From Chitinispirillaceae bacterium (GTDB lineage Bacteria > Fibrobacterota > Chitinivibrionia > Chitinivibrionales > Chitinispirillaceae), in contig JAFGIN010000213.1 of the NCBI GenBank assembly GCA_016929595.1, positions 1 through 64,000 on the forward strand: 64,000 nucleotides of DNA, in the 5' to 3' direction. Positions 1 through 64,000 of the stretch are shown in pieces. Position 1 is the stretch's first letter. Each line of letters opens with the position of its first letter. The position numbers and the translations under genes are program-made. Below the pieces are notes generated by a model. The model was not told the DNA's origin, made no database searches, and saw only the letters and a list, made by a program, of their open reading frames with translations.

Positions 1-483
1 GCCAGCTTTGCTGGTTCTTGCACGGGAAATTCAGCGACTGTTACAAATGGAGTTTATACAAGCGGTTCATACGCAAATCCAGCATGGATCAGTGAGCTAT
101 CTGGATCAAAAATTACAGGAAGAGCTGATAGCGCAAGATCTGCAGCCATTGCTGACACTGTTAAAAAAATGCCTGGACAAGAATGGAATGGAACAACCCT
201 TTCATTTATATGCGATGTCGAATTTCAACATAAAATACAGTATAACAGAATACTCACAATATTGGACGGCGCAGCAACAACAATAGACGTTGATGATTTC
301 CCAGCTGTAAATATATCATACTCATCAACAACAAACTGGACGCTTGGTACTGGAGCAAGTGGGCAAAGAATATGTATAGTAAACACATCAGGAGTAACGC
401 ACAATGTAAACGGACACGCTTTAAATACTGGTTTGTTTATGGATTTCATAAGAATTGGTACTGTGTGGTATAGAGAATTTTAG
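1..483 (+). CDS. Phage tail-fibre-like protein, C-terminal part (5' end outside window)
   Basis: The frame is open from base 1 to a TAG at 481-483, so the gene starts left of the window. About 160 residues are visible. The beginning contains a GNSATVTNG-type segment followed by a Ser/Ala-rich helix-like stretch, and the end is a beta-rich Gly/Thr/Asn domain; both are usual at the tips of tail fibres. It is followed 24 bp later by a tail/baseplate gene in the same direction, with a lysozyme further on, which places it in the late structural module of a prophage. An overlapping frame starting at base 8 has no phage features and I regard it as a shadow. The tail-fibre role rests on composition and neighbours, not on a precise family match. 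Confidence 0.65.
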   Translation, partial: ASFAGSCTGNSATVTNGVYTSGSYANPAWISELSGSKITGRADSARSAAIADTVKKMPGQEWNGTTLSFICDVEFQHKIQYNRILTILDGAATTIDVDDFPAVNISYSSTTNWTLGTGASGQRICIVNTSGVTHNVNGHALNTGLFMDFIRIGTVWYREF

Positions 484-507
484 AAATACTAAAAGTTAAG
501 GTCAACA

Positions 508-1188
508 ATGTCATATTTAATAACAGATGATGATTATTATCAAAAAAATCAGCCTGCAAAGTCTGAAGAAATTGCTAATATAATAGAGGTTTATACACAG
601 CCGTTATCATCATCAGAAATTCAGGAGTTATACAAATCAACGGACGCTATAAGAATTATTCCGTATAGTACAAAAATGGTCGAAATTGTATTTGATAAAA
701 AACCCGTAACTGAAGCGGAGATTTCGTTGGAATCAACGACAGCAATTGTTATTGCTGAGAGTACAATTTACGCCTGGGGTGCAACAGTAATTCTCGAAAA
801 TCCATCCGGAACACTCGATTCAGCAATCATATCTGCTAATGGGAGGCTATTAGTTGTAAGTGGTGAAGAATTAATAACAAGAAGAGATGAATTGAGCATC
901 AGAGAATATGGTGAACAAAAGTACACTCTTCCCAAAAATCATTTAATACAAACGAGGGAACAGGCTGAAAGGATTGCCGAAGAATTGTTGCAATCGTATA
1001 AAACTGTACATAAAGATATAGAAATTGACTGGAGGGGAAACCCGGCACTCGAATTAACGGACGAAATCGAAGTCCATGTTTATAAAAGTAAAGCTTTTGA
1101 AAACAGGGGTACTTTTTATATAACAAAAAATACATTTGAATTTGACGGAACTTTGAAACAGCAAACAAACGGGAGAAAAACACAATGA
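508..1188 (+). CDS. Probable phage tail/baseplate structural protein
   Basis: This is a 226-residue protein with an AAGG-type ribosome site 7 bp before its ATG. The C-terminal half (about residues 150-220) has an EQAERIAEELLQSY helix. After it come a strand with an xxNPALELTDEIEVH pattern and a final strand ending in FEFDGTLKQQ. This order (helix, 'GxPxLxxGDxIxV' strand, closing strand) is seen in tail-hub and baseplate proteins of siphoviruses. There is no signal peptide or membrane segment. Its stop codon overlaps the start of the next gene in ATGA, so the two are probably translationally coupled. The tail-hub assignment is inferred from pattern and context; the exact family is not recognised. 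Confidence 0.55.
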   Translation: MSYLITDDDYYQKNQPAKSEEIANIIEVYTQPLSSSEIQELYKSTDAIRIIPYSTKMVEIVFDKKPVTEAEISLESTTAIVIAESTIYAWGATVILENPSGTLDSAIISANGRLLVVSGEELITRRDELSIREYGEQKYTLPKNHLIQTREQAERIAEELLQSYKTVHKDIEIDWRGNPALELTDEIEVHVYKSKAFENRGTFYITKNTFEFDGTLKQQTNGRKTQ

Positions 1189-1877
1189 GTACGGCTCCGA
1201 GCGGATGGGAGACACCTGTAACTGATTATGCCATCGATGATGGTTTATTGGCAAGTGATTTAAATCGCATTGAAAATAATATTAACAGAATAGAAAATGA
1301 AAATAGAACACTAAACCCGGCAAGTGCACCACTTAATAATACTGCAACATTACGAGAATTGCTTGATATGTTTGCGCATCAAATCGGAAAAATGATGGGT
1401 GACGATTGGTATAGCACTGTAAAAGCAAATGTAAAAGATAGCTTTTGGCTTGACGGTACATTGCCAGGAGGTTTTATAATTCCTGCAAGTCCTGCCGCTC
1501 CTCTTGTTTTTGCAGCAACATTTACAATTGTTCCACCAGGAAAAAAACTTATTTTATCACAAATAAAATTTCATGCAAGTAATATCGGTTCAACTACAGG
1601 GCCCACAGGACATATTTACAGTGTATTTTTTTCAAATACATATCCCGATGCGGCTAGTGAATTTTATTGGTATCATGCATCAAGATCGGGCCTTGAATCG
1701 TTAGATTGGTACCAAATGGATGAAGATTTGGACGTTATAGTTTATACAAATAACACTGAAAACGATAAAACGATTTTAATTGAATTGGTCGTTGGTCAAG
1801 GTCCAAGTGATTACACTACACAAACCAGTTATATTTCAAGTCAAGTTAAAGTCAGATTTGATTTAATGGATATTTAA
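1185..1877 (+). CDS. Phage tail protein with NRIENNI-type N-terminal segment
   Basis: This is a 230-residue protein overlapping the upstream gene by 4 bp. Its N-terminus carries a WETPVTDYAIDDGLLASDLNRIENNI-like arrangement, that is W, then a spacer, then 'LNRIE'. This is followed by an LRELLDMFAHQIGKMMG helix and a WY pair, an order found at the start of many phage tail-tip and fibre proteins. The remainder (about 90-230) is a beta-rich domain with no motif I recognise. It probably decorates the tail tip or host-contact region. The following HNH gene begins 10 bp downstream. I am confident that it is a phage structural gene and less sure of its position in the virion. Confidence 0.6.
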   Translation: MSTAPSGWETPVTDYAIDDGLLASDLNRIENNINRIENENRTLNPASAPLNNTATLRELLDMFAHQIGKMMGDDWYSTVKANVKDSFWLDGTLPGGFIIPASPAAPLVFAATFTIVPPGKKLILSQIKFHASNIGSTTGPTGHIYSVFFSNTYPDAASEFYWYHASRSGLESLDWYQMDEDLDVIVYTNNTENDKTILIELVVGQGPSDYTTQTSYISSQVKVRFDLMDI

Positions 1878-1887
1878 CGGGTCGAAC

Positions 1888-2283
1888 ATGCAACGTGGCT
1901 TTAGAATGTGTAAACATCCGGGATGTCCAAAGTTAGTAGAGAATGCTGGCTATTGTGAAAAACACATGGTTCAACACAAAAACGATTCCCGGCAAAACTT
2001 TAAAGCTCTGGATACAAAAAAAACTCCAGAGCAAAAGAAGTTTTATAGTTCTGCAGCCTGGACTGCAGCCAGTCTCTACCACCGCCAGATAGAACCACTC
2101 TGTAGGAGATGCAAAGCTCAGGGCAAAATTGAATTTAGAAATTTGGCAGTACATCACAATCCATCTTATGATTTTTTAGTTAGTAACGGATTAAATCCGC
2201 TTTCCGACAAATATTTAGAAACAATATGTGTGAAACACCATATGGAAGAATTGCGTAAAAAAAATCTAAAAAAGGTTACTTAA
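1888..2283 (+). CDS. Phage HNH endonuclease
   Basis: This is a 131-residue protein. An N-terminal zinc-binding cluster is visible (C8, C13, C23, H26). It is followed by a KFYSSAAWTAASLYHR helix, a CxxC pair (LCRRC), the HNH-type VHHNP histidine pair and a C-terminal ICVKHH. This order is that of small phage HNH nucleases, which nick DNA during packaging or act as homing enzymes. Such genes usually sit beside the terminase; here it lies between tail and lysis genes. Its TAA stop directly abuts the ATG of the lysozyme gene. The nuclease fold is well supported, but its role in this phage is inferred. Confidence 0.8.
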   Translation: MQRGFRMCKHPGCPKLVENAGYCEKHMVQHKNDSRQNFKALDTKKTPEQKKFYSSAAWTAASLYHRQIEPLCRRCKAQGKIEFRNLAVHHNPSYDFLVSNGLNPLSDKYLETICVKHHMEELRKKNLKKVT

Positions 2284-2754
2284 ATGTTTGAAAAAGCTGT
2301 TAATTTAATTTTAAAGTATGAAGGTGCGTATGTGAATGATCCAAAGGATCCCGGTGGTGAAACAAAATTTGGGATTAGTAAAAAATCGTATCCTACTCTT
2401 GATATTAAAAACCTTTCTATAGCTGACGCAAAAAGTATTTACTACCGGGATTACTGGTTACCCTGTCGCTGTGACGAGGTAGATTACAAAATTGCATTAA
2501 TTATTTTTGACACTGCTGTTAATATGGGTGTGGTTCTTGCAGTTGAATTACTTCAGAAATCGTGTAGTGTAAAAACAGATGGAATTTTTGGTTCACAGAC
2601 TATGGCAAAAGTGGCCGTAATGGATCCACTCTTTTTGATTACTACTTATTGTTCTTATAGGATGATGGAATATGTAAAAATGAAAAATTTTCGGTATTAT
2701 GGACATGGATGGACCAAACGCACCATTGAAACTGCAATTATGGCCTGCAAATAG
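2284..2754 (+). CDS. GH108-type phage lysozyme (endolysin)
   Basis: This 156-residue protein opens with the GH108 signature: a helix ending in KYEGAYVND, then DPGGETKFGIS. E13 is the expected catalytic glutamate. A later FDTAVNMG segment and the DGIFGSQT peptidoglycan-binding-like motif are also typical of the ZliS/lysozyme family. The enzyme cuts the glycan strands of peptidoglycan to release phage progeny. No signal peptide is visible and I see no holin gene beside it, so a holin may lie outside the window. The length is slightly below the usual 160-190 residues and the ORF ends in an ordinary TAG. It is the last intact prophage gene before the tRNA-derived repeat at 2854. Confidence 0.82.
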   Translation: MFEKAVNLILKYEGAYVNDPKDPGGETKFGISKKSYPTLDIKNLSIADAKSIYYRDYWLPCRCDEVDYKIALIIFDTAVNMGVVLAVELLQKSCSVKTDGIFGSQTMAKVAVMDPLFLITTYCSYRMMEYVKMKNFRYYGHGWTKRTIETAIMACK

Positions 2755-2853
2755 ATTGAAAAGAGGTGACTAATCTGGTGTCGATACCACATTACAACTG
2801 TTACGTTTTTTTATTGTTTTAATCGCTAAAATTACACACATTACAGTAACGAC
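2755..2853. other. Prophage right-end spacer
   Basis: This is AT-rich sequence between the lysozyme stop and the first tRNA-derived repeat. No gene is visible. It probably represents the phage arm next to the attachment core. Confidence 0.4.
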
Positions 2854-2903
2854 GTTGGCTCATAACCCAAAGGTCGTACGTTCAAATCGTGCCCCCGCTA
2901 CCA
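2854..2903 (+). repeat. tRNA-fMet 3' fragment, copy 1 (attachment-site-like)
   Basis: The sequence reads as the 3' half of an initiator-like tRNA. It has an anticodon loop CTCATAA (anticodon CAT), 3' stem CCCAA, a T-arm GTACG/TTCAAAT/CGTGC that pairs fully, the acceptor strand CCCCGCT, and A plus an encoded CCA. The 5' half is absent and one G is missing from the 5' side of the anticodon stem. tRNA 3' ends are common phage attachment cores. Its place just after the lysozyme suggests that it is the attR of the prophage on the left. A strong hairpin terminator follows. Confidence 0.75.
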
Positions 2904-2907
2904 ATAT

Positions 2908-2953
2908 AAACCCTTCAAAATAGCCAATTCGGTGTATTTTGGAGGGTTTTTTT
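2908..2953 (+). terminator. Rho-independent terminator after tRNA fragment 1
   Basis: AACCCTTCAAAATA and TATTTTGGAGGGTT form a 14-bp stem with one G-T pair, followed by TTTTTTT. It lies directly behind the CCA end, as it would behind a functional tRNA gene. Confidence 0.8.
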
Positions 2954-3014
2954 ATTTTAAGCCTATTCTTCTATTCCCCGTTCAATATACGTTTACTACC
3001 CTGTAAAAGTGTAC

Positions 3015-3047
3015 TTATAGTCCACTAAGTGGACTATAAAGTGGACT
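3015..3047. promoter_or_regulatory. 12-bp inverted repeat plus third half-site
   Basis: TTATAGTCCACT and AGTGGACTATAA flank a single A, making a perfect 12-bp dyad at 3015-3039. AGTGGACT is repeated once more at 3040-3047. The layout is that of a repressor operator or a recombinase-binding site. It lies between tRNA fragment 1 and the broken HNH gene. Confidence 0.45.
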
Positions 3048-3111
3048 CATTTTTCACCGGTTACCATTGGCATGTCTTCAGGGCAATACATAAAAATCAA
3101 ATAAATCTTAC

Positions 3112-3612
3112 TTGCTATCAGCTCCAAACAATATTTTAAACGCAATCCAATTAGCCTCGTTAATGGGATATCCCAGATTTAACTCTGTTAATCCAATAAT
3201 AGGCTCCATTGGCAGGAAAATTAGTGAAAATTATATGGTTCAGCCAGATGAATGGGATAAAAATGATCCCAATTGGTGGTCTGTAATTGCAGACGGTAAA
3301 CGTGAAGGCTTTTTTTATTGGAGACTCAAATCTCAAATTGTTAAATCGCTTCAGAAATCAGACGAATTTAAGGAAAATGGGTTAAAATTCGAACCAGACG
3401 AAATTGTATCGATTCCTGATGGGAATGAAGAAAGTGCAAGGATTAGTGTCCTTGTGAATATCTATGAAAGAGATGCCGGAAATCGAAAAGCGTGCATTGA
3501 ATACCATGGCTGCAAATGTGCAATATGTGGCTTTGATTTTGAACACTTACGCCGATCCGTTCGGAAAGCTGCGAATGAAAACAGAATAGATCAATGTTTG
3601 CAGGGCTTTTAA
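3112..3612 (+). pseudogene. Broken HNH (McrA-like) endonuclease
   Basis: The frame is open from a TTG at 3112 with no ribosome site and an in-frame stop a few codons upstream, so the N-terminus is probably lost. Residues around 125-150 read RKACIEYHGCKCAICGFDFEH, which matches the start of the HNH domain of 5-methylcytosine-type restriction nucleases (the CxxCGFDF zinc knuckle). The expected continuation with the HVHH catalytic histidines is missing. Instead the frame runs into an unrelated Arg/Ala-rich tail and stops 15 bp before tRNA fragment 2. It is therefore truncated at both ends and almost certainly inactive. It lies between two attachment-like repeats, which suggests that it is cargo of a decayed integrated element. 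Confidence 0.6.
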
Positions 3613-8694: not shown

Positions 8695-10953
8695 ATGAAA
8701 AGATTGTTCAGAATTGTACTTCCAGCTTCTGTTTTCGTCTTCTCTTCAGTTATAAGTGGTTTTTCGGACCAGATCAATCTCAAAGGCAAGGTTATCGATG
8801 AATATGGCCAACCGGTAAAAGATGCATCAGTGACTCTCATCAAAAATTCCTGCAATGTTGTCACCGATAACAATGGTATGTATGAGATTACAAAAGCCAA
8901 TTCCGATGTGAACAACAGGTTAAAAAAGTCACCAGCGGCGATCGGTATCAATAAAAAGTTTCTTGAACTGGGAGATTATTTCCATGCAACCGTACAGGTA
9001 CTCTCAATAAAAGGTGAGGTTTTTAATCAGCTCACCATAAAAAACCAGAACAGGGTACCAATTGAGCAGCTTGTCCCTCCCGCAATACAGTCTCAAGCGC
9101 TGATTTTTTCTATAAAAACCGCCAACAGTACGGTGAATATCAAATCAGTACGGTGCGGATCCCAGTGGCTGTGGAATGATAAACACATTATAGAAAGCTC
9201 CCGAAGTTACATCAACAACCGAAGCGCATCAGCGGCACTGGATTCTCTGACAGTTAAAAAGGATGGGAAGGTAACCGTATCTCTGCCGGTAACCAGCCTG
9301 ATTGCAACACTGAATGATGTTATTCTCCGCGACATCACAGACCCTTCCAGTAACAGCATGATTGGTGATGTCTCGTTTTCCGAACCTTCACGAACATTTA
9401 AAAGTAGCCTCTCTGTAAAGATGAGTACATCAATCCCCGATGCAGAAATACGGTATACAACGGACGGATTATTACCAGATGCATCTTCAATTCTTTACAC
9501 TGGAAATCCTGTTGCAATCAGTCAAACAACACAACTCCGGGCTGCCGCATTTAAAAGCGGTAATCTGGCCGGCCATGTCAGTACTGCAATTTATATTACC
9601 CGGAATTTTGATTATACATCAGAAATTCCAATCATTATCATGGATGGATACGGCAAGGGAAAACCTGAGGACAAATACAACTTTATCGACCTTGCCTTTA
9701 TGACATTTGAACCTGTCAATGGAGTTGCATCACTTGACGATACACCCACGCTGTCTACCCGGGCGGGATACCATCTTCGCGGACAATCATCCATGTCCTT
9801 TAAACAGGCCCCTTATCGAATTGAGCTTTGGGATAATGAAGACTGTGACGCCGATTATCCGGTCCTTGGAATGCCCGGAGGTTCCGACTGGGCCCTGATT
9901 TCTCCCTGTACTGATAACACACTTATAAGAAATGTGCTGGCGTTTGACCTTGGAAAAGCCATGGGTCTTGATGCAGTACAATATCGTTTTGCGGAAATTT
10001 TTATCAATCAGGATGGCGGAGCTCTGGAGAAGCTGGACTATGAAGGTATATACGCTCTCATTCAACCAATTAAAAACCGTAAGAATACACTTGACCTTAA
10101 AAAACTTAAACCTGAAGTGACAGACCCGGCAAAACTCTCTGGCGGATATATTTTCAAGTTCGACCAGGCTGTCAGAGACAGTGGAATGATCTTTCTTGAA
10201 TGTACAGGTGCAAAAAAATTTTCTGAAGCAGGCGGTGGCATGTTCGGATCTCATAAAAAGTACGATAGTACCGCGACCTGCTGGAGTGATCTTGAGCTCG
10301 TTGATCCATCAGAACCTAATCCGCAACAGAAGGAGTGGATAACCGGGTATATTCAGAAGTTCCATGATGCTCTTCATGCAAAACCGGCAGGTGACTGGAA
10401 ATCATACGTTGATCTCAACTCATTTGTAAACAACCACCTGCTTAATGAAGTAACACGAAATGTGGATGCCTGGATACGAAGTCATTTTATGTATAAAGAT
10501 CGAGATCAGCCCATTACTGCCGGTCCAGTGTGGGATTATAACTTTGCACTAGGTAACATGACCGATGGATTTGGATGGGGATCTTCTTCGACTGCCACAG
10601 GATGGCATGTCCTTGACAACAGAACCGGCAGCGGAGACTGGCATACCATGATGTGGAATCAGCCAGAATATAAAAAAGCTGTAAAACTGCGCTATCTTGA
10701 GCTTCGTAACAGTGTACTTTCTGATAATAGCATGATACAACTTATCGATGATGTGCGAAAACCAATCATGAATGTTGCGCAGCGTAATTTTGAGGCATGG
10801 CCTATGGGAAAATGCATGGGTTCAGGTGGCATGTTTGGATCGGGAAGCAGTAAAGTCACTGATACTACATGGACCGGTCAGATCGATTCACTTAAAACCT
10901 GGACAAAAAAACGGCTAAAAACGCTGGACTCTCTGATGCAGACGTTGCCATGA
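8695..10953 (+). CDS. Exported CotH-kinase-domain protein with regulatory and CHB_HEX-like domains
   Basis: This is an exported protein of about 752 residues with signal peptide KRLFRIVLPASVFVFSSVISGFS. It then has a carboxypeptidase-regulatory-like domain (LKGKVIDEYGQPVKDASVTL, about 25-75). Next is a chitobiase/hexosaminidase C-terminal-like strand set (IRYTTDGLLPDASSILYTG, about 255-305), and from about 310 a CotH domain. In CotH the LRGQSSMSF.K.PYRIEL and GPVWDYNFALGN segments are the characteristic ATP- and metal-binding regions. CotH proteins phosphorylate surface or spore-coat proteins in Bacillus; in exported bacterial forms the target is unknown. ATG 8695 has an AGGAT site; the in-frame GTG at 8680 is less likely. 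The second half is rich in Gly/Met near the end (MGKCMGSGGMFGSG). A terminator follows. Confidence 0.85.
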   Translation: MKRLFRIVLPASVFVFSSVISGFSDQINLKGKVIDEYGQPVKDASVTLIKNSCNVVTDNNGMYEITKANSDVNNRLKKSPAAIGINKKFLELGDYFHATVQVLSIKGEVFNQLTIKNQNRVPIEQLVPPAIQSQALIFSIKTANSTVNIKSVRCGSQWLWNDKHIIESSRSYINNRSASAALDSLTVKKDGKVTVSLPVTSLIATLNDVILRDITDPSSNSMIGDVSFSEPSRTFKSSLSVKMSTSIPDAEIRYTTDGLLPDASSILYTGNPVAISQTTQLRAAAFKSGNLAGHVSTAIYITRNFDYTSEIPIIIMDGYGKGKPEDKYNFIDLAFMTFEPVNGVASLDDTPTLSTRAGYHLRGQSSMSFKQAPYRIELWDNEDCDADYPVLGMPGGSDWALISPCTDNTLIRNVLAFDLGKAMGLDAVQYRFAEIFINQDGGALEKLDYEGIYALIQPIKNRKNTLDLKKLKPEVTDPAKLSGGYIFKFDQAVRDSGMIFLECTGAKKFSEAGGGMFGSHKKYDSTATCWSDLELVDPSEPNPQQKEWITGYIQKFHDALHAKPAGDWKSYVDLNSFVNNHLLNEVTRNVDAWIRSHFMYKDRDQPITAGPVWDYNFALGNMTDGFGWGSSSTATGWHVLDNRTGSGDWHTMMWNQPEYKKAVKLRYLELRNSVLSDNSMIQLIDDVRKPIMNVAQRNFEAWPMGKCMGSGGMFGSGSSKVTDTTWTGQIDSLKTWTKKRLKTLDSLMQTLP

Positions 10954-56048: not shown

Positions 56049-58787
56049 TTACGGTACAAACCGCAGATTATCTATGTAATATGGACCTGAATTGGCGTTA
56101 GTATTAAGTGCTATAATAAATTTAAAATCACTATAACTTCCCCTGAGTTTAGAAAGTACCGTAGAAGGCACTGTGAACTGCAGCGTACTGAATGTATTAA
56201 ACGGTTTGCCGGTAAGATTGACAGCTCCAAGGCTTACCCGGTTCAATCCTGCATTTGCTGAATTAACAAAAACCTGAACCTGACCAATCCAGCTAGGATT
56301 TGGTTGTGTTGATCCGATATAAAGATCAACTGCAAGTTTTGATGTCTCATTTACGATTTGTGATGTACTCATGGCAGCACTGGTGATTTCACGATAGTTG
56401 TTACCACCAAAAGTAATTGATGCGCTACCCTGGGTTTTGTTTGTGGTATTGCGTGCAAGTGTTCCACTTCCGCTGGTTATTGTCCATTTTGAAGTATATT
56501 CAAAGCCAAGAGTCTGATAAACGTTCTGACTTACATAAATAACACCTTCATAGGGACGACGATCATATCCGGTAACAGTAACATAGATTATACCGGTTGC
56601 AGTAGGATTGATTGTGAAAGTAGAAGTTGAGCTTGTTGTAACATCAACAAGATGAATATTGTTTGTAGAACTATAGAGACATACCTGACGTTTTCCGCTA
56701 CCGGATGATGTAATTCTTACAGTTTGAGAACCTGTTCCAATCTGTGACGGATGTGTGACGGTACGGGTAACAGGAGTGCGAACATGGATATCGCCTTCTG
56801 GATCACCGAAAACATGGAAAATCTGGAAAGTTTCGGTACGGGCACTGCTGGTTCTTTGCATCATGTAGATTTTGCCATAATTAAGATTCTGACCTAACTT
56901 ACGGGCATTTCCTTCAGTCATACCATGCATGTTGGTGGAAGTAGGAGCTGGGAGATTTTTGTCAAAGTTTGGTGAAGTTGAACTATTAATCCAGGTACGA
57001 TAACTGGGAAGCAAACCCATACCGCAACCATGTGCCATCCAGTCATTTGGCCCGGAGAAGGATACATCGACAGCTGAAATAACCGCATATGCACCACCAT
57101 TTGAATGGAGCAGAAGTGCACGAGTAAAGTTATTGTTTTTATGGTATGAACCTGTCAGGCAATTAAGCGAATAGATTACCGGACGCTTGGTACCATTGGA
57201 GAGTGCGTTTACATTAGTTGTGGAAAAGCTTGGAGAACCCCAACCGGTAGCACTTCCATGATCGCGATGAATAACAAATGATATACCGCCGTTAATGGTA
57301 TTACTGATACGCGAAGTTGCAGTAGTTCCGTTAAGAAAAGTATTGAAGACACGTGTACCAATTGTTGATGTGCTGTTCCAGAGTAGAGAGCTTGACCTCC
57401 ATTTGCAGCTTGATGTAACGTTATCGGGATTTACAAAGCTTCGGGTATTGGTGTAGCTGTTTCCTTCAAAATAACTTGCAAATGCATCTGCAGTTTCACA
57501 GAAATATCTGTCAGCAATATTATTAGGACCAACACTGCTTGGTTCATGATCCTGGATCTGCGCAGCAACAAGAGTTTTCCTGTAGATATTAGTGGTAGGA
57601 GGCGTACGATCCATAGTGGTAACTTTTGAAAGCATGGTTGTCAATTCTGTACTTGTTTTTGCAGGAAGACGACCATAAAATAAATCGGGTACGGGAGTCT
57701 GTCCGGCAACCAGGGGATCACGTTCTGCATAATACAAATCAGAGTAACCACCGTAATTGCTGGTATATGTTTCGACATACCACCCATCGACACCATTGTT
57801 TGCAGTTTCATCACCAATGATAAGCAGGTAAGCAGGATAATTTGCAGCAGACAGACTTAACATGTAATTTCTGATCTGAGCTGAATCTGGTGCACCATTT
57901 GAATTGATCTGTGATGTTTTTACTACGACAACTTTATATCCTTTACGACGTTTCCAGTTAATAAACGTATTAAGTGCAGAATTACCATTAAACTGATCAT
58001 CCATGATAATCATATACCGTTCCGGAGCAGCAACAGCATCAACTCCGGCATCATAACTTTCGGTAAACAGTTCATTGAGAGATCTGCTCGTGACAGGTTT
58101 CTGGTCAAGTGCATTTACGGATGTATTTGCAATATTAACAATCACATCAATGGATGTGGCAACCTGCAGTTCACCAGTTCCCGGGCGTGTACGGGCAAGA
58201 GCCACTTCCACACGCACGAATTGACGATCACGCACAACATATGTCTCAGACTTCAAAATGTAATCGGCCGGATAATACTCCGATCCTGAATATGTTAAAT
58301 CATCAACAGTAATCTTTGGCTGAAACCCGTCTACATCAGGATACGGTATCTGAGCAGGCTCCACATAAATCTTCCGATCGATATACTTATCGGTTACCGG
58401 ACGTGCAGCAACTTTTGCTTCCGACCCGTAAGGCACTTCAAGAGTTATGATGTGCATTGGAACGGCTGGTTTCCCAACTTCGTAAGTATAACCTGTAACA
58501 CCTGGTATTTCAATATGCTGGAATTTTTTTCCGTCCATTTCGACATTGGAAACATCGATTCCAGGTACATCGAGGGTAAGCTTATATTGCCGAATATTAT
58601 CAACCTTCTGAGCGATGTTAACCAGCGATCCGTTAACCGTCGTGGTAACACTCAGTTCTTCCGATTCTGTAGCTTTTTTCTCTGAGCTAAGGTTAATCCA
58701 TTCTCCCGAAACGGAAGTTCCGACAAACAACGAAGCGGCCAACAATGACCCCTTCGTAAAAAAATCAAAATACGATTTGTAATTCAT
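56049..58787 (-). CDS. Exported gingipain-type C25 cysteine peptidase (second copy)
   Basis: This is a 912-residue secreted protease. The signal peptide region is FFTKGSLLAASLFVGTSVSG. A propeptide-like region (about 60-230) precedes the C25 catalytic domain (about 250-630). The dyad is H510 in VIHRDHGSATG and C543 in SLNCLTGS, 33 residues apart. This is the same spacing class as the 20.4-kb homologue (31), but the two are not close copies: the other has F5/8C domains, which this one lacks. The C-terminal part (about 690-912) holds an Ig-like unit and a carbohydrate-binding-type jelly roll ending in YIDNLRFVP. GGAGA stands 4 bp before the ATG. It is divergent from the response-regulator gene, and a 13-bp inverted repeat lies between. 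Confidence 0.88.
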   Translation of the reverse strand: MNYKSYFDFFTKGSLLAASLFVGTSVSGEWINLSSEKKATESEELSVTTTVNGSLVNIAQKVDNIRQYKLTLDVPGIDVSNVEMDGKKFQHIEIPGVTGYTYEVGKPAVPMHIITLEVPYGSEAKVAARPVTDKYIDRKIYVEPAQIPYPDVDGFQPKITVDDLTYSGSEYYPADYILKSETYVVRDRQFVRVEVALARTRPGTGELQVATSIDVIVNIANTSVNALDQKPVTSRSLNELFTESYDAGVDAVAAPERYMIIMDDQFNGNSALNTFINWKRRKGYKVVVVKTSQINSNGAPDSAQIRNYMLSLSAANYPAYLLIIGDETANNGVDGWYVETYTSNYGGYSDLYYAERDPLVAGQTPVPDLFYGRLPAKTSTELTTMLSKVTTMDRTPPTTNIYRKTLVAAQIQDHEPSSVGPNNIADRYFCETADAFASYFEGNSYTNTRSFVNPDNVTSSCKWRSSSLLWNSTSTIGTRVFNTFLNGTTATSRISNTINGGISFVIHRDHGSATGWGSPSFSTTNVNALSNGTKRPVIYSLNCLTGSYHKNNNFTRALLLHSNGGAYAVISAVDVSFSGPNDWMAHGCGMGLLPSYRTWINSSTSPNFDKNLPAPTSTNMHGMTEGNARKLGQNLNYGKIYMMQRTSSARTETFQIFHVFGDPEGDIHVRTPVTRTVTHPSQIGTGSQTVRITSSGSGKRQVCLYSSTNNIHLVDVTTSSTSTFTINPTATGIIYVTVTGYDRRPYEGVIYVSQNVYQTLGFEYTSKWTITSGSGTLARNTTNKTQGSASITFGGNNYREITSAAMSTSQIVNETSKLAVDLYIGSTQPNPSWIGQVQVFVNSANAGLNRVSLGAVNLTGKPFNTFSTLQFTVPSTVLSKLRGSYSDFKFIIALNTNANSGPYYIDNLRFVP

Positions 58788-60015: not shown

Positions 60016-60145
60016 TCCTTTAACTAAATCGGGAGATAGCAAACCGTCTCCACATCCTTTTGCACAAATCTCTGCTATAGCAAATTCGCTTTCATTTGAT
60101 TATTTTACTCTCTTTTGAAGACTTTTTTACAAGGAGTATTGAAAA

Positions 60146-62062
60146 ATGAAAATATTTGTACCTGGACGAATTTGTCTCTTTGGTGAACACACAGACTGGG
60201 CAGGCGGATACCGCCGGATCAATGGTGGATTGGAGATGGGATATACACTTATCAGCGGAACCAACCAGGGCCTTTTCGCTGATGTAAAGCCTCATCCATC
60301 AAAACTTATTTTCAGGACAACGCTCACCGATGAGGTATTTGAAATCCCCATGACACGTGAAGCACTCCTTGTTGAAGCTCAGAAGGGTGGTATTTTCAGT
60401 TATGTCGCTGGTGTTGCCTATCAGGTTTTAACTCATTATCGTGTACACGGGCTGGAGATCGATAATTACAAAACAGATTTGCCGGTAAAAAAAGGGCTTT
60501 CATCAAGCGCTGCTACAAGTGTTCTGGTAGCACGGGCATTCAACAGAGTGTACGACCTGAAAATGACCATCCGTGGAGAGATGGAATTTGGATATCTGGG
60601 TGAAATAACTACCCCATCACGGTGCGGACGCATGGATCAGGGCTGTGCTTATGGTGACAAACCAATTTTGATGATCTTTGATGGGGATCGGGTTGATGTA
60701 AAAGAGGTTGCAGTTGGAGGTACGCTTAACTTCATAATAGTTGATCTCTGTGCAGGTAAAGATACACGTGAGATTCTCAGCAAATTGAATAAATGCTATC
60801 CCTTCGCAGAAAACGATCTGCAGCGGGGAGTTCAGGAGTACCTCGGCACTATCAGCGCATCATTAACAAAAAGAGCAGTCAAGGCAATAGAAGTCGGTGA
60901 TGCTGCCGCATTGGGTAAGCTAATGGTGGAATCGCAGGCGGCTTTTGATCGTGCATGTATCCCGGCATGCCCAACACAGCTGACCTCACCTGTTTTGCAC
61001 AAACTGCTCTCCTGGCCATCTCTACAACCACTGATTCTGGGTGGCAAGGGCGTTGGATCCCAGGGAGATGGAACAGCACAGCTTCTGGTCAAAGATGAAG
61101 CAACCCGCAACAAAGTTATTGAAATTATCGAATCTGAACTTCAGATGCAGTGCCAGAAACTTACACTTTCACCAGCTAAAAAGGTGCGAAAGGCAGTTAT
61201 TCCGGCAGCAGGTTTCGGCACCCGGCTGTTCCCGGCAACTAAAGCGGTTAAAAAGGAACTCTTTCCTATTATCGGCAGAGATGGTATCGCAAAACCGGTC
61301 ATTCAGGCTATTGTTGAAGAGGCACTCAGTGGTGACATTGAAGAGATCTGCGTTATTGTACAGAAAGGCGATCGGACACTCTTTGAGGATTACTTTCATA
61401 CCCCCCCTCCTATGGATCATTTTGCAAAACTCTCCAAAGATGCTCAAAAAATATCCAATTACATTACAGAAATCGGACATAAAATCACATTCATCGAACA
61501 GCAGACTCAAAACGGATTTGGTGATGCAGTATTCTGCGCAAAAGAGTGGGTCGGAAATGAACCGTTCCTGCTGATGCTTGGTGACCATCTGTATGCATCA
61601 TATACCGACACATCATGTACAAGGCAGCTGCTTGAAGTGTATGAAAAGTATGGACGAAGCGTTGTTGGGCTGATGCTTACACCAGCTGAGCAGATCCGTC
61701 ATTTTGGTACCGTTACCGGAAACTGGGAAGAGAAACAATCGGTCATCTCGATTACAGAATTCGCAGAAAAACCAGATTCTATCTATGCTGCGGAACACCT
61801 GCATATCGAAGATCTTCCGGATGATCAGTACTGCACCGTTTTTGGTCAGTATGTACTCTCACACCGCATTTTTGAATTTCTTGAAGAGAACATCTCAAAA
61901 AACATCAGGGAAAAAGGTGAGTTCCAGCTCACATCATGCCTCGACAAACTTCGTCAGGAAGATGGATTCATGGGGTATCTTGTTCAGGGAAAACGTTTTG
62001 ATATCGGATTACCCCAGGCATATCTTGAAAGTGCCGTTGAATTTGCGAACTGGCGCAACTGA
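60146..62062 (+). CDS. Fusion of GHMP sugar kinase and GalU-type uridylyltransferase
   Basis: This 638-residue protein has two enzyme halves. Residues 1-335 are a GHMP kinase: PGRICLFGEHTDWAGGY (motif 1, galactokinase-like GEHTD), LPVKKGLSSSAATS (motif 2, ATP-binding), and LGGKGVGSQGDGTAQ (motif 3). From about 346 a GalU-type nucleotidyltransferase starts: AVIPAAGFGTRLFPATKAVKKELFP, TQNGFGDAV, MLGDHLY and EFAEKPD. A linker of about 10 residues joins them. The expected reaction is sugar + ATP to sugar-1-phosphate, then + UTP to UDP-sugar, without releasing the intermediate, akin to the fused Fkp fucokinase/pyrophosphorylase. The sugar could be galactose, glucuronate or another hexose; I cannot tell. 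AAGGAG precedes the ATG. No related gene is adjacent. Confidence 0.88.
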   Translation: MKIFVPGRICLFGEHTDWAGGYRRINGGLEMGYTLISGTNQGLFADVKPHPSKLIFRTTLTDEVFEIPMTREALLVEAQKGGIFSYVAGVAYQVLTHYRVHGLEIDNYKTDLPVKKGLSSSAATSVLVARAFNRVYDLKMTIRGEMEFGYLGEITTPSRCGRMDQGCAYGDKPILMIFDGDRVDVKEVAVGGTLNFIIVDLCAGKDTREILSKLNKCYPFAENDLQRGVQEYLGTISASLTKRAVKAIEVGDAAALGKLMVESQAAFDRACIPACPTQLTSPVLHKLLSWPSLQPLILGGKGVGSQGDGTAQLLVKDEATRNKVIEIIESELQMQCQKLTLSPAKKVRKAVIPAAGFGTRLFPATKAVKKELFPIIGRDGIAKPVIQAIVEEALSGDIEEICVIVQKGDRTLFEDYFHTPPPMDHFAKLSKDAQKISNYITEIGHKITFIEQQTQNGFGDAVFCAKEWVGNEPFLLMLGDHLYASYTDTSCTRQLLEVYEKYGRSVVGLMLTPAEQIRHFGTVTGNWEEKQSVISITEFAEKPDSIYAAEHLHIEDLPDDQYCTVFGQYVLSHRIFEFLEENISKNIREKGEFQLTSCLDKLRQEDGFMGYLVQGKRFDIGLPQAYLESAVEFANWRN

Positions 62063-63352: not shown

Positions 63353-64000
63353 TTGGCTATTTACAAAAACCCGCTTAATTTGACTCTCACATTAATTTCA
63401 CTGACCCTGTTTTCAACAGGATGCAGCCCGATCCTTCAAAAGGATGATCAGGATAAGCAGGACAACACGCAACAGCATCTGGACACCGATAATGACGGTA
63501 CACCTGATGTAAACGATAATGATATTGATGGCGATGGGATCGACAACTGGAAAGACCCTGATATCGATGGCGATGGCATTCCCAACACTTCGGATAAAGA
63601 CATCGATGGTGATGACATTGACAATATCGACGACAACGACATCGATGGAGACGGAATACAAAACGAGTTTGATTCCGATATTGACGGAGATGGGATAACT
63701 AACACTTCCGATAACGATATCGATGGTGATGGCATTGACAATATCGACGATAATGATATCGATGGTGATGGGATTAAAAACAATGAAGACCCGGATATTG
63801 ACGGGGATGGCTTAGACAACAATTCAGATTCTGATCTTGACGGTGATGGAATAATCAACAAGGATGATAATGACATCGATGGTGATGGAATAGATAATAA
63901 AGATGATCCAGATATCGACAATGATGGCACTGCCAATACCTCTGATCAGACACCGGGCGGAACGACTGATGCAGGAGATGGGACAGCTGGAACTCAGGGA
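63353..64000 (+). CDS. Lipoprotein with 13-residue Asp-rich (TSP3-like) repeats, 3' end outside window
   Basis: The frame starts at TTG 63353, with AAGGAG 7 bp upstream, and is open to base 64000 (216 codons visible). The signal is LTLTLISLTLFSTGC, with the lipid Cys at about 24. A short Gln/Asp-rich linker follows. Then there are at least eleven consecutive copies of a 13-residue unit of form DIDGDGIxNxxDx, plus one divergent DTDNDG unit before them. DxDxDG units bind Ca2+ in thrombospondin-type-3 repeats. The C-terminal visible part (TPGGTTDAGDGTAGTQG) is a Gly/Thr/Asp linker leading outside the window. Each repeat is 39 bp in DNA. A long complementary-strand frame in the same region is a shadow. 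The start codon TTG is unusual but the ribosome site decides it. Confidence 0.85.
   Translation, partial: MAIYKNPLNLTLTLISLTLFSTGCSPILQKDDQDKQDNTQQHLDTDNDGTPDVNDNDIDGDGIDNWKDPDIDGDGIPNTSDKDIDGDDIDNIDDNDIDGDGIQNEFDSDIDGDGITNTSDNDIDGDGIDNIDDNDIDGDGIKNNEDPDIDGDGLDNNSDSDLDGDGIINKDDNDIDGDGIDNKDDPDIDNDGTANTSDQTPGGTTDAGDGTAGTQG

Follow-up and report, generated by a model that had tools for sequence, protein, structure and literature searches.

The locus described here raises the question of whether one bacterial polypeptide may turn a free sugar into a UDP-sugar and, if so, which sugar this would be. It lies in a 64,000-nucleotide stretch of contig JAFGIN010000213.1 from a Chitinispirillaceae bacterium (this whole stretch is called the window below). 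According to the original prediction, one 638-residue chain in the window carries a complete GHMP sugar kinase and a complete GalU-type nucleotidyltransferase. The motifs, domains and folds of both halves were all found, and the fusion family is real and conserved, apparently uncharacterised and probably bifunctional.

Architecture of the fusion and its proposed mechanism

The ORF extent listed in Table 1 is exact, begins with ATG and includes the stop codon. Besides the motifs in the table, the translated ORF contains GEHTD at residues 13-17, GFGTRLFPATK at residues 356-366 and KELFP at residues 370-374. The first half belongs to the GHMP kinase superfamily by its match to the Pfam family GHMP_kinases_N (38.6 bits against a gathering score of 22.3, residues 86-169); GalKase_gal_bdg also matches it, at residues 4-22 (23.6 bits against 23.1). 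The second half belongs to the GalU-type superfamily by its match to NTP_transferase (85.8 bits against 21.2, residues 349-631). Thus the Pfam matches put the kinase at the N-terminus, which bears out the predicted domain order, opposite to that of Fkp. At E 0.001, none of the 22 NCBIfam models listed reaches its own cut-off on the fusion protein. GalU (TIGR01099) is the top model for the second half with 194.2 bits, below its cut-off of 326.8; the galactokinase models give 22-47 bits on the first half, and the FKP model NF009948 is absent among the 22 families matched.

The structure model of the protein has a mean pLDDT of 90.3 and a pTM of 0.86, and is weakest at residues 116-118 (pLDDT below 50). 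In the VIA comparison, residues 1-342 of the model match the Pyrococcus galactokinase 1s4e (Z 34.4, rmsd 2.2, 312 aligned residues, 18% identity), and residues 345-636 match GalU 5j49 (Z 33.4, rmsd 2.1, 268 aligned residues, 34% identity). The transferase half is 26-36% identical to the GalU chains among the VIA matches listed. No HddA or FKP chain is among the 50 VIA structure matches listed, which is no evidence either way.

The sequence motifs and the predicted fold make it likely that the fusion is a bifunctional UDP-sugar salvage enzyme. Its GHMP kinase, at the N-terminus, would use ATP to phosphorylate a free sugar at the C1 hydroxyl. In this reaction the phosphates would be held by R8 and the GLSSSAA loop and sugar hydroxyls by D17, with D164 as the general base. 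The C-terminal GalU-type domain would couple the resulting sugar-1-phosphate to UMP from UTP, with release of pyrophosphate. This UTP step is suggested by the fold and by the GxGTR, GDH, EKP and FDIG motifs, the use of UTP itself being presumed by analogy with the nearest family. We also infer both activities and a free sugar as the substrate. R8, D17 and D164 align with Arg592, Asp601 and Asp762 of FKP (the pairing was made here from motif and alignment), which are described as the stabilising arginine, the sugar-binding aspartate and the general base, respectively (PMC11982464). Several points tell against the salvage reading: the P-loop, which is PVKKGLSSS in the fusion kinase and mostly PIGAGLSSS in the galactokinases compared, the weakness of the structure model at this loop, the two inserts of the transferase half, the R360 changes in some members and the rarity of nucleotide-sugar genes beside the fusion.

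Table 1. Features of the fusion gene and its protein, other features of the window, and related gene pairs at other loci
Feature	Location	Strand	Basis or remark
Fusion gene, 638 aa, GHMP sugar kinase - GalU-type nucleotidyltransferase	60146..62062	+	ORF, domain models, predicted fold
Likely ribosome-binding site AAGGAG	60131..60136	+	last base 9 bases 5' of ATG
Kinase half, residues 1-342	60146..61171	+	domain models, alignments, structure match
Kinase-half key residues	R8, E14, H15, D17, K116, GLSSSAA 117-123, D164, K205, GGKGVGSQGDG 299-309	+	
Nucleotidyltransferase half as aligned, residues 343-638	61172..62059	+	domain models, alignments, structure match
Transferase-half key motifs	GFGTR 356-360, K370-E371, GDH 479-481, EKP 541-543, FDIG 618-621	+	
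Domain junction, residues 343-345, almost no linker	61172..61180	+	predicted structure, structure match, alignment
Start of Asp-rich DGDGI-type repeat protein, calcium-binding-like	window 63353-64000		by eye; cut by window end
912-aa protein, peptidase family C25 (gingipain-type) + propeptide	window 56049-58787	-	
Phage-tail-like ORFs, possibly prophage end	window 1-3600		by eye
Endolysin-like ORF	window 2284-2754		by eye
Glucuronokinase-like/GalU-type pairs	L178:4650-5645, L179:5029-6928, L180:5957-7845, L181:245-2122, L182:3601-5483, L165:8137-10065		

Occurrence in bacteria and separation of the two halves

The search for other proteins of the same domain order, proposed as a check on the prediction, found the fusion in many bacterial genomes. 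Among 60 related genomes, the window's own included, 14 carry it, 12 in one piece and 2 cut into contig pieces. A scan of named genomes gave 156 relatives, of which 80 loci were kept; identity to the window protein is 52-90% (best segment). In 77 of the 80 the fusion is one uninterrupted ORF; the exceptions are L026 and L100, both truncated at a contig end, and L090, which is split into two adjacent ORFs. Because the fusion recurs intact in many genomes, chance or misassembly is excluded as its source. In a sample of 387 genomes from the phylum of L043, 39 have the fusion at E 1e-100; in one of these (G367) the match covers residues 3-348 only.

Judged by record titles, fourteen phylum labels carry the fusion, with 17 of the 72 tree rows unlabelled. 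These include Fibrobacterota, Poribacteria, Verrucomicrobiota, Lentisphaerota, Kiritimatiellota and Planctomycetota, as well as Chloroflexota (with Anaerolinea thermolimosa strain IMO-1 among its holders), Cyanobacteriota, Goldiibacteriota, Spirochaetota, Gemmatimonadota and others. The 72-sequence alignment consists of the window protein and 71 of the 80 loci. L026, L100 (cut) and L090 (split) were left out by hand, as were L023, L025, L027, L052, L064 and L088, which are near relatives of others or were simply not taken; further alignments of 28, 27 and 46 sequences were picked for spread. In the phylogenetic tree of the 72 proteins, Chloroflexota and Cyanobacteriota form one well-supported group each; the single group of Fibrobacterota is weakly supported (76). 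The labels Verrucomicrobiota, Lentisphaerota, Kiritimatiellota and Planctomycetota are intermixed. This mixing suggests, rather than proves, horizontal gene transfer, since bins are at times mislabelled. The fusion of L080, labelled Akkermansia muciniphila, groups with that of the Lentisphaerae bin L096 and has the same FKP neighbour; its label is doubtful.

The domain junction is the site of an insertion or a split in some cyanobacterial relatives. In the bin of L090, two stops at the junction, in the same frame, divide the gene into ORFs of 346 and 303 residues. In its relative L097 the frame is open, and the junction insert (approximately 9040-9225) contains a unit of some 20 residues twice (TPEIYRRDACSTQIEERKDA), probably because a repeat element entered the gene in frame.

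The plasmids of four Nostoc strains carry the kinase half alone (348-367 aa, 59.7-61.1% identical, annotated merely as GHMP kinase). R8, E14, H15, D17, R23, R162 and D164 are retained in all four of these stand-alone kinases, and R159 is replaced by leucine in all four. Drawn with a midpoint root, the tree places them among the fusions, as sisters to the cyanobacterial ones, a position that agrees with their having lost the transferase half. The kinase of Sphaerospermopsis is without its first ~150 residues, and a gene of its own encodes the transferase. The Nostoc and Sphaerospermopsis arrangements thus indicate that the two halves can be encoded apart.

Candidate sugars and alternative readings

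Neighbouring genes were considered as a guide to the sugar and rejected. They were counted on the same strand within 2.5 kb, with at least half coverage and set identity limits, and 119 loci were merged to 110. In 94 of the 110 loci (some of which are short) the fusion has no neighbour of the six nucleotide-sugar gene types looked for, and none adjoins it in the window itself, whose neighbours are uninformative on the sugar. A UDP-xylose synthase (UXS) gene adjoins the fusion in 7 loci (six downstream, one upstream), a UDP-glucuronate 4-epimerase-like gene in 3, a nucleotide-sugar dehydrogenase gene in 4, and an FKP gene lies directly beside it in 4 (three upstream, one downstream); jointly these neighbours touch 16 of the 110 loci. 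The UXS, epimerase-like and dehydrogenase genes speak for the UDP-glucuronate/UDP-xylose pool. The loci with a UXS neighbour are bins of one broad group (Kiritimatiellota, Lentisphaerota, related or unlabelled bins), and the UXS of L043 scores 367 bits with UDP-glucuronic acid decarboxylase 1. The epimerase-like gene of L065, which we take from its nearest family to be a UDP-glucuronate 4-epimerase, has its best solved relative deposited as a dTDP-glucose 4,6-dehydratase. Co-occurrence of UXS was also set aside as a clue: with UXS in 341 of the 387 genomes of the L043 phylum sample, it has no power.

The residues of the kinase half provide two hints. The galactokinase equivalents of E14 and H15 presumably contact the C6 side of galactose, and their retention would favour a hexose substrate. 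The arginines at 23 and 162 would favour an anionic substrate. These hints pull apart, so the sugar is left undecided. Our tentative first choice is a uronate or pentose feeding the UDP-glucuronate/UDP-xylose pool. Another hexose or an N-acetylhexosamine is a weaker candidate, galactose is somewhat weaker again, and a phosphorylated sugar is improbable.

It is rather unlikely that the fusion is a galactose enzyme, that is, a galactokinase joined to a UDP-galactose-forming GalU that provides the pyrophosphorylase route in one chain. Its kinase does have the fold and the E-H-x-D sugar motif of galactokinase. Moreover, among the 60 relatives, a separate GalK over the cut-off is present in 10 of the 14 holders versus 2 of the 46 non-holders, and GalT in 11 versus 4. 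Such an association may reflect a link to galactose or a saccharolytic life style that the holders have in common. The window's own genome (G000) has neither GalT nor a GalK over the cut-off, which is in keeping with a galactose role. It gave no UDPGP hit either, and its GalU-like matches are the fusion and one RmlA-like protein only; these absences may be bin gaps. On the other hand, a dedicated GalK is usually present too (also in 31 of 46 other holders), and the fusion would therefore seldom be the sole galactokinase. It scores 38 bits with the galactokinase model TIGR00131, for which the curated cut-off is 226.65, and the arginines at positions 23 (71 of 72 fusions) and 162 (72 of 72) align with a valine and an isoleucine that are invariant in six GalK.

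Two replacement roles were rejected as well. Holders usually have GalK and GalT, so that replacement of either by the fusion does not hold generally. Replacement of the UDP-glucose pyrophosphorylase was dismissed because 12 of the 14 holders have another GalU-like (E 1e-20) or UDPGP (E 1e-100) match; the two without one, G000 and G011, are incomplete bins.

Glucuronate as a rule was likewise rejected: L165 has its own pair of a GalU-like gene and a glucuronokinase-like gene downstream of the fusion. The latter carries the GNPSD motif, which we take to be the mark of glucuronokinase. Glucuronokinase-like kinases are also found beside GalU-like matches in the holders G001, G017, G027 and G032. 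Therefore galactose and glucuronate, both on the sugar panel first suggested, have become less likely, given the separate GalK and glucuronokinase-like genes in holders.

In heptose pathways a phosphatase acts between the kinase and the transferase. Analogously, the fusion kinase might make a sugar bisphosphate, from which a separate HAD phosphatase would trim the distal phosphate before the transferase forms a UDP-sugar, for example UDP-heptose. This HldE-like scheme is improbable. In 15 of 110 loci a GmhB/histidinol-phosphatase-like HAD gene does directly precede the fusion on its strand, at several of them less than 30 bases away or overlapping by 3, and the substrate region contains arginines 23, 159 and 162, none of which is present in the galactokinases compared. 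However, the HAD neighbour occurs only in Verrucomicrobiota, Lentisphaerota, Kiritimatiellota, PVC or unlabelled bins, and R159 is the residue replaced in the Nostoc kinases. In addition, a GmhA-like match is found in 45 of 55 holders but exceeds the family cut-off in 1 of 55, with none at E 1e-10 in 10 of 55. Given these GmhA counts, a heptose-type role is unlikely as the general function, but may hold in the lineage with the HAD neighbour. More improbable still is that the fusion works twice around its GmhB-like partner, with a sugar bisphosphate being made, trimmed and converted into UDP-heptose or a similar UDP-sugar. If true, the ADP-heptose (HldE) pathway would have a UDP counterpart built on a kinase of a different family.

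A TIGR03790-like gene lies upstream of the fusion in 16 of 110 loci. The order TIGR03790-like gene, GmhB-like HAD gene, fusion is seen in L036, L038, L043, L048, L050, L054, L139, L154 and others, in Verrucomicrobiota, Lentisphaerota, Kiritimatiellota and unlabelled bins.

Returning to the preferred reading of a bifunctional salvage enzyme, both halves are probably functional. The window protein retains the catalytic residues in both halves, which answers the earlier concern that one of them might lack these. Constant in all 72 fusions are R8, E14, H15, D17, K116, S119-S121, R159, R162, D164 and K205 of the kinase, and P353, G356, E371, G479-D480-H481, E541-K542-P543 and D619 of the transferase. 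R360, the arginine of GxGTR, is altered to N, G or A in three fusions (L060, L087 and L094), which are perhaps kinase-only members. T359 differs in three others (L055, L069, L071), G358 is replaced by serine in 6 of 72, K370 by arginine in L094 and G621 by aspartate in L101. Members with any of these changes may have inactive transferases or bin sequence errors.

Relative to L022, a 90% relative, dN/dS is 0.034 for the kinase and 0.029 for the transferase, with synonymous sites near saturation. L022 is the only comparison that gave values for both halves: L023 gave 0.045 for the kinase half only, and the others were saturated (pN/pS 0.10-0.12). The pairwise distances of the two halves correlate (r 0.75, 72 sequences). 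Given the conserved residues, the low dN/dS and the correlated distances, both halves are under similar purifying selection and neither resembles a relic in the window's lineage. That only one half is active, the other being a relic or regulator, is thus very unlikely. In its favour are the stand-alone Nostoc kinases, altered R360 in 3 of 72 fusions and a related free transferase in L176 and L177, whose lost motif residues show that loss occurs in the wider family. Against it, selection is alike on both halves, the other catalytic positions checked, except G358 and T359, are retained in 71 or 72 of 72, and the window protein has the entire GxGTR motif.

Comparison with known systems

HldE also has a kinase and a nucleotidyltransferase in one chain, kinase first; its kinase is of another family and it makes ADP-heptose. 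The fusion resembles HldE in this one-chain order, and the HddA/GmhB/HddC set in the GmhB-like HAD gene that is sometimes adjacent. It differs in that only 1 of 55 holders has a GmhA over the cut-off.

With GalK, the fusion kinase shares the fold, the GEH[ST]D motif and the catalytic Arg and Asp, whereas it is far under the family cut-off and has extra arginines, an altered P-loop and a joined transferase. The transferase half has the fold and catalytic motifs of GalU but is under its cut-off. It contains two inserts, after KELFP and after EKP, that are not present in the GalU genes compared, and both are found in the unfused GalU-like protein of L103. At this locus (L103:1468-4902), a GalE-like gene, an arabinokinase-like gene (RLDVMGGIADYSG), which we take to be an arabinokinase, and the GalU-like gene stand in a row. 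This one locus suggests that there may be a GalU subfamily devoted to kinase partners.

A second, different fusion is present at L176:3240-7695 and L177:4223-8450, encoding a protein of 1109 or 1130 aa. In L176 it begins with an FKP-type kinase region (matching the FKP model at 613-952) and ends with a UDPGP domain. At both loci it is preceded by the GalU-like protein with lost motif residues.

DrGKUP of zebrafish consists of a glucuronokinase and a putative UDP-GlcA pyrophosphorylase, transferase first, with very low transferase activity (PMC3938481). The fusion is similar in joining a GHMP sugar-1-kinase to a bacterial-type short nucleotidyltransferase; the domain order is reversed, which sets it apart from DrGKUP. 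The logic of a kinase with a UTP-type partner, as originally proposed, fits the fusion, but is not new in itself given this precedent. Bacterial glucuronokinase-like proteins (GNPSD) align to the fusion kinase over 170 columns only and are separate genes in fusion holders, for example those of L165 and L178-L181. Where such a gene adjoins a GalU-type gene (Table 1), the pair is the unfused counterpart of the zebrafish enzyme; some of these loci add a UDP-GlcA 4-epimerase-like gene, Gmd or sulfate-activation genes.

The enzyme had been called under-described, and no account of this fusion was found in the openly licensed literature. In the passages seen, the main text of a 2025 FKP phylogeny contains no word starting with 'uridyl' or 'glucuronokinase'. 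If our reading is true, a single enzyme of this family would take a free sugar to its UDP form, which glycan synthesis could exploit, and its presence would indicate which free sugar these mostly uncultured bacteria recycle. Named strains make it testable: Anaerolinea thermolimosa for the fusion and the four Nostoc strains for the free kinase.

FKP of Bacteroides fragilis is described as a 949-residue protein with the pyrophosphorylase first, a beta-helix in the pyrophosphorylase part and a GDP product (PMC11982464). Both FKP and the fusion combine a GHMP sugar-1-kinase and a sugar-1-phosphate nucleotidyltransferase in one chain, following a salvage logic, and the general base and arginine of the two kinases correspond. 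In contrast to FKP, the fusion has its kinase at the N-terminus and does not match the FKP model, and in 4 loci FKP is a separate gene beside it. If read correctly, the fusion would join FKP and the animal glucuronokinase fusion as another natural type in which a sugar-1-kinase and a pyrophosphorylase share one chain, one that is kinase-first, has a GalU-type partner and occurs under 14 phylum labels, yet brings no listed NCBIfam model to its cut-off.
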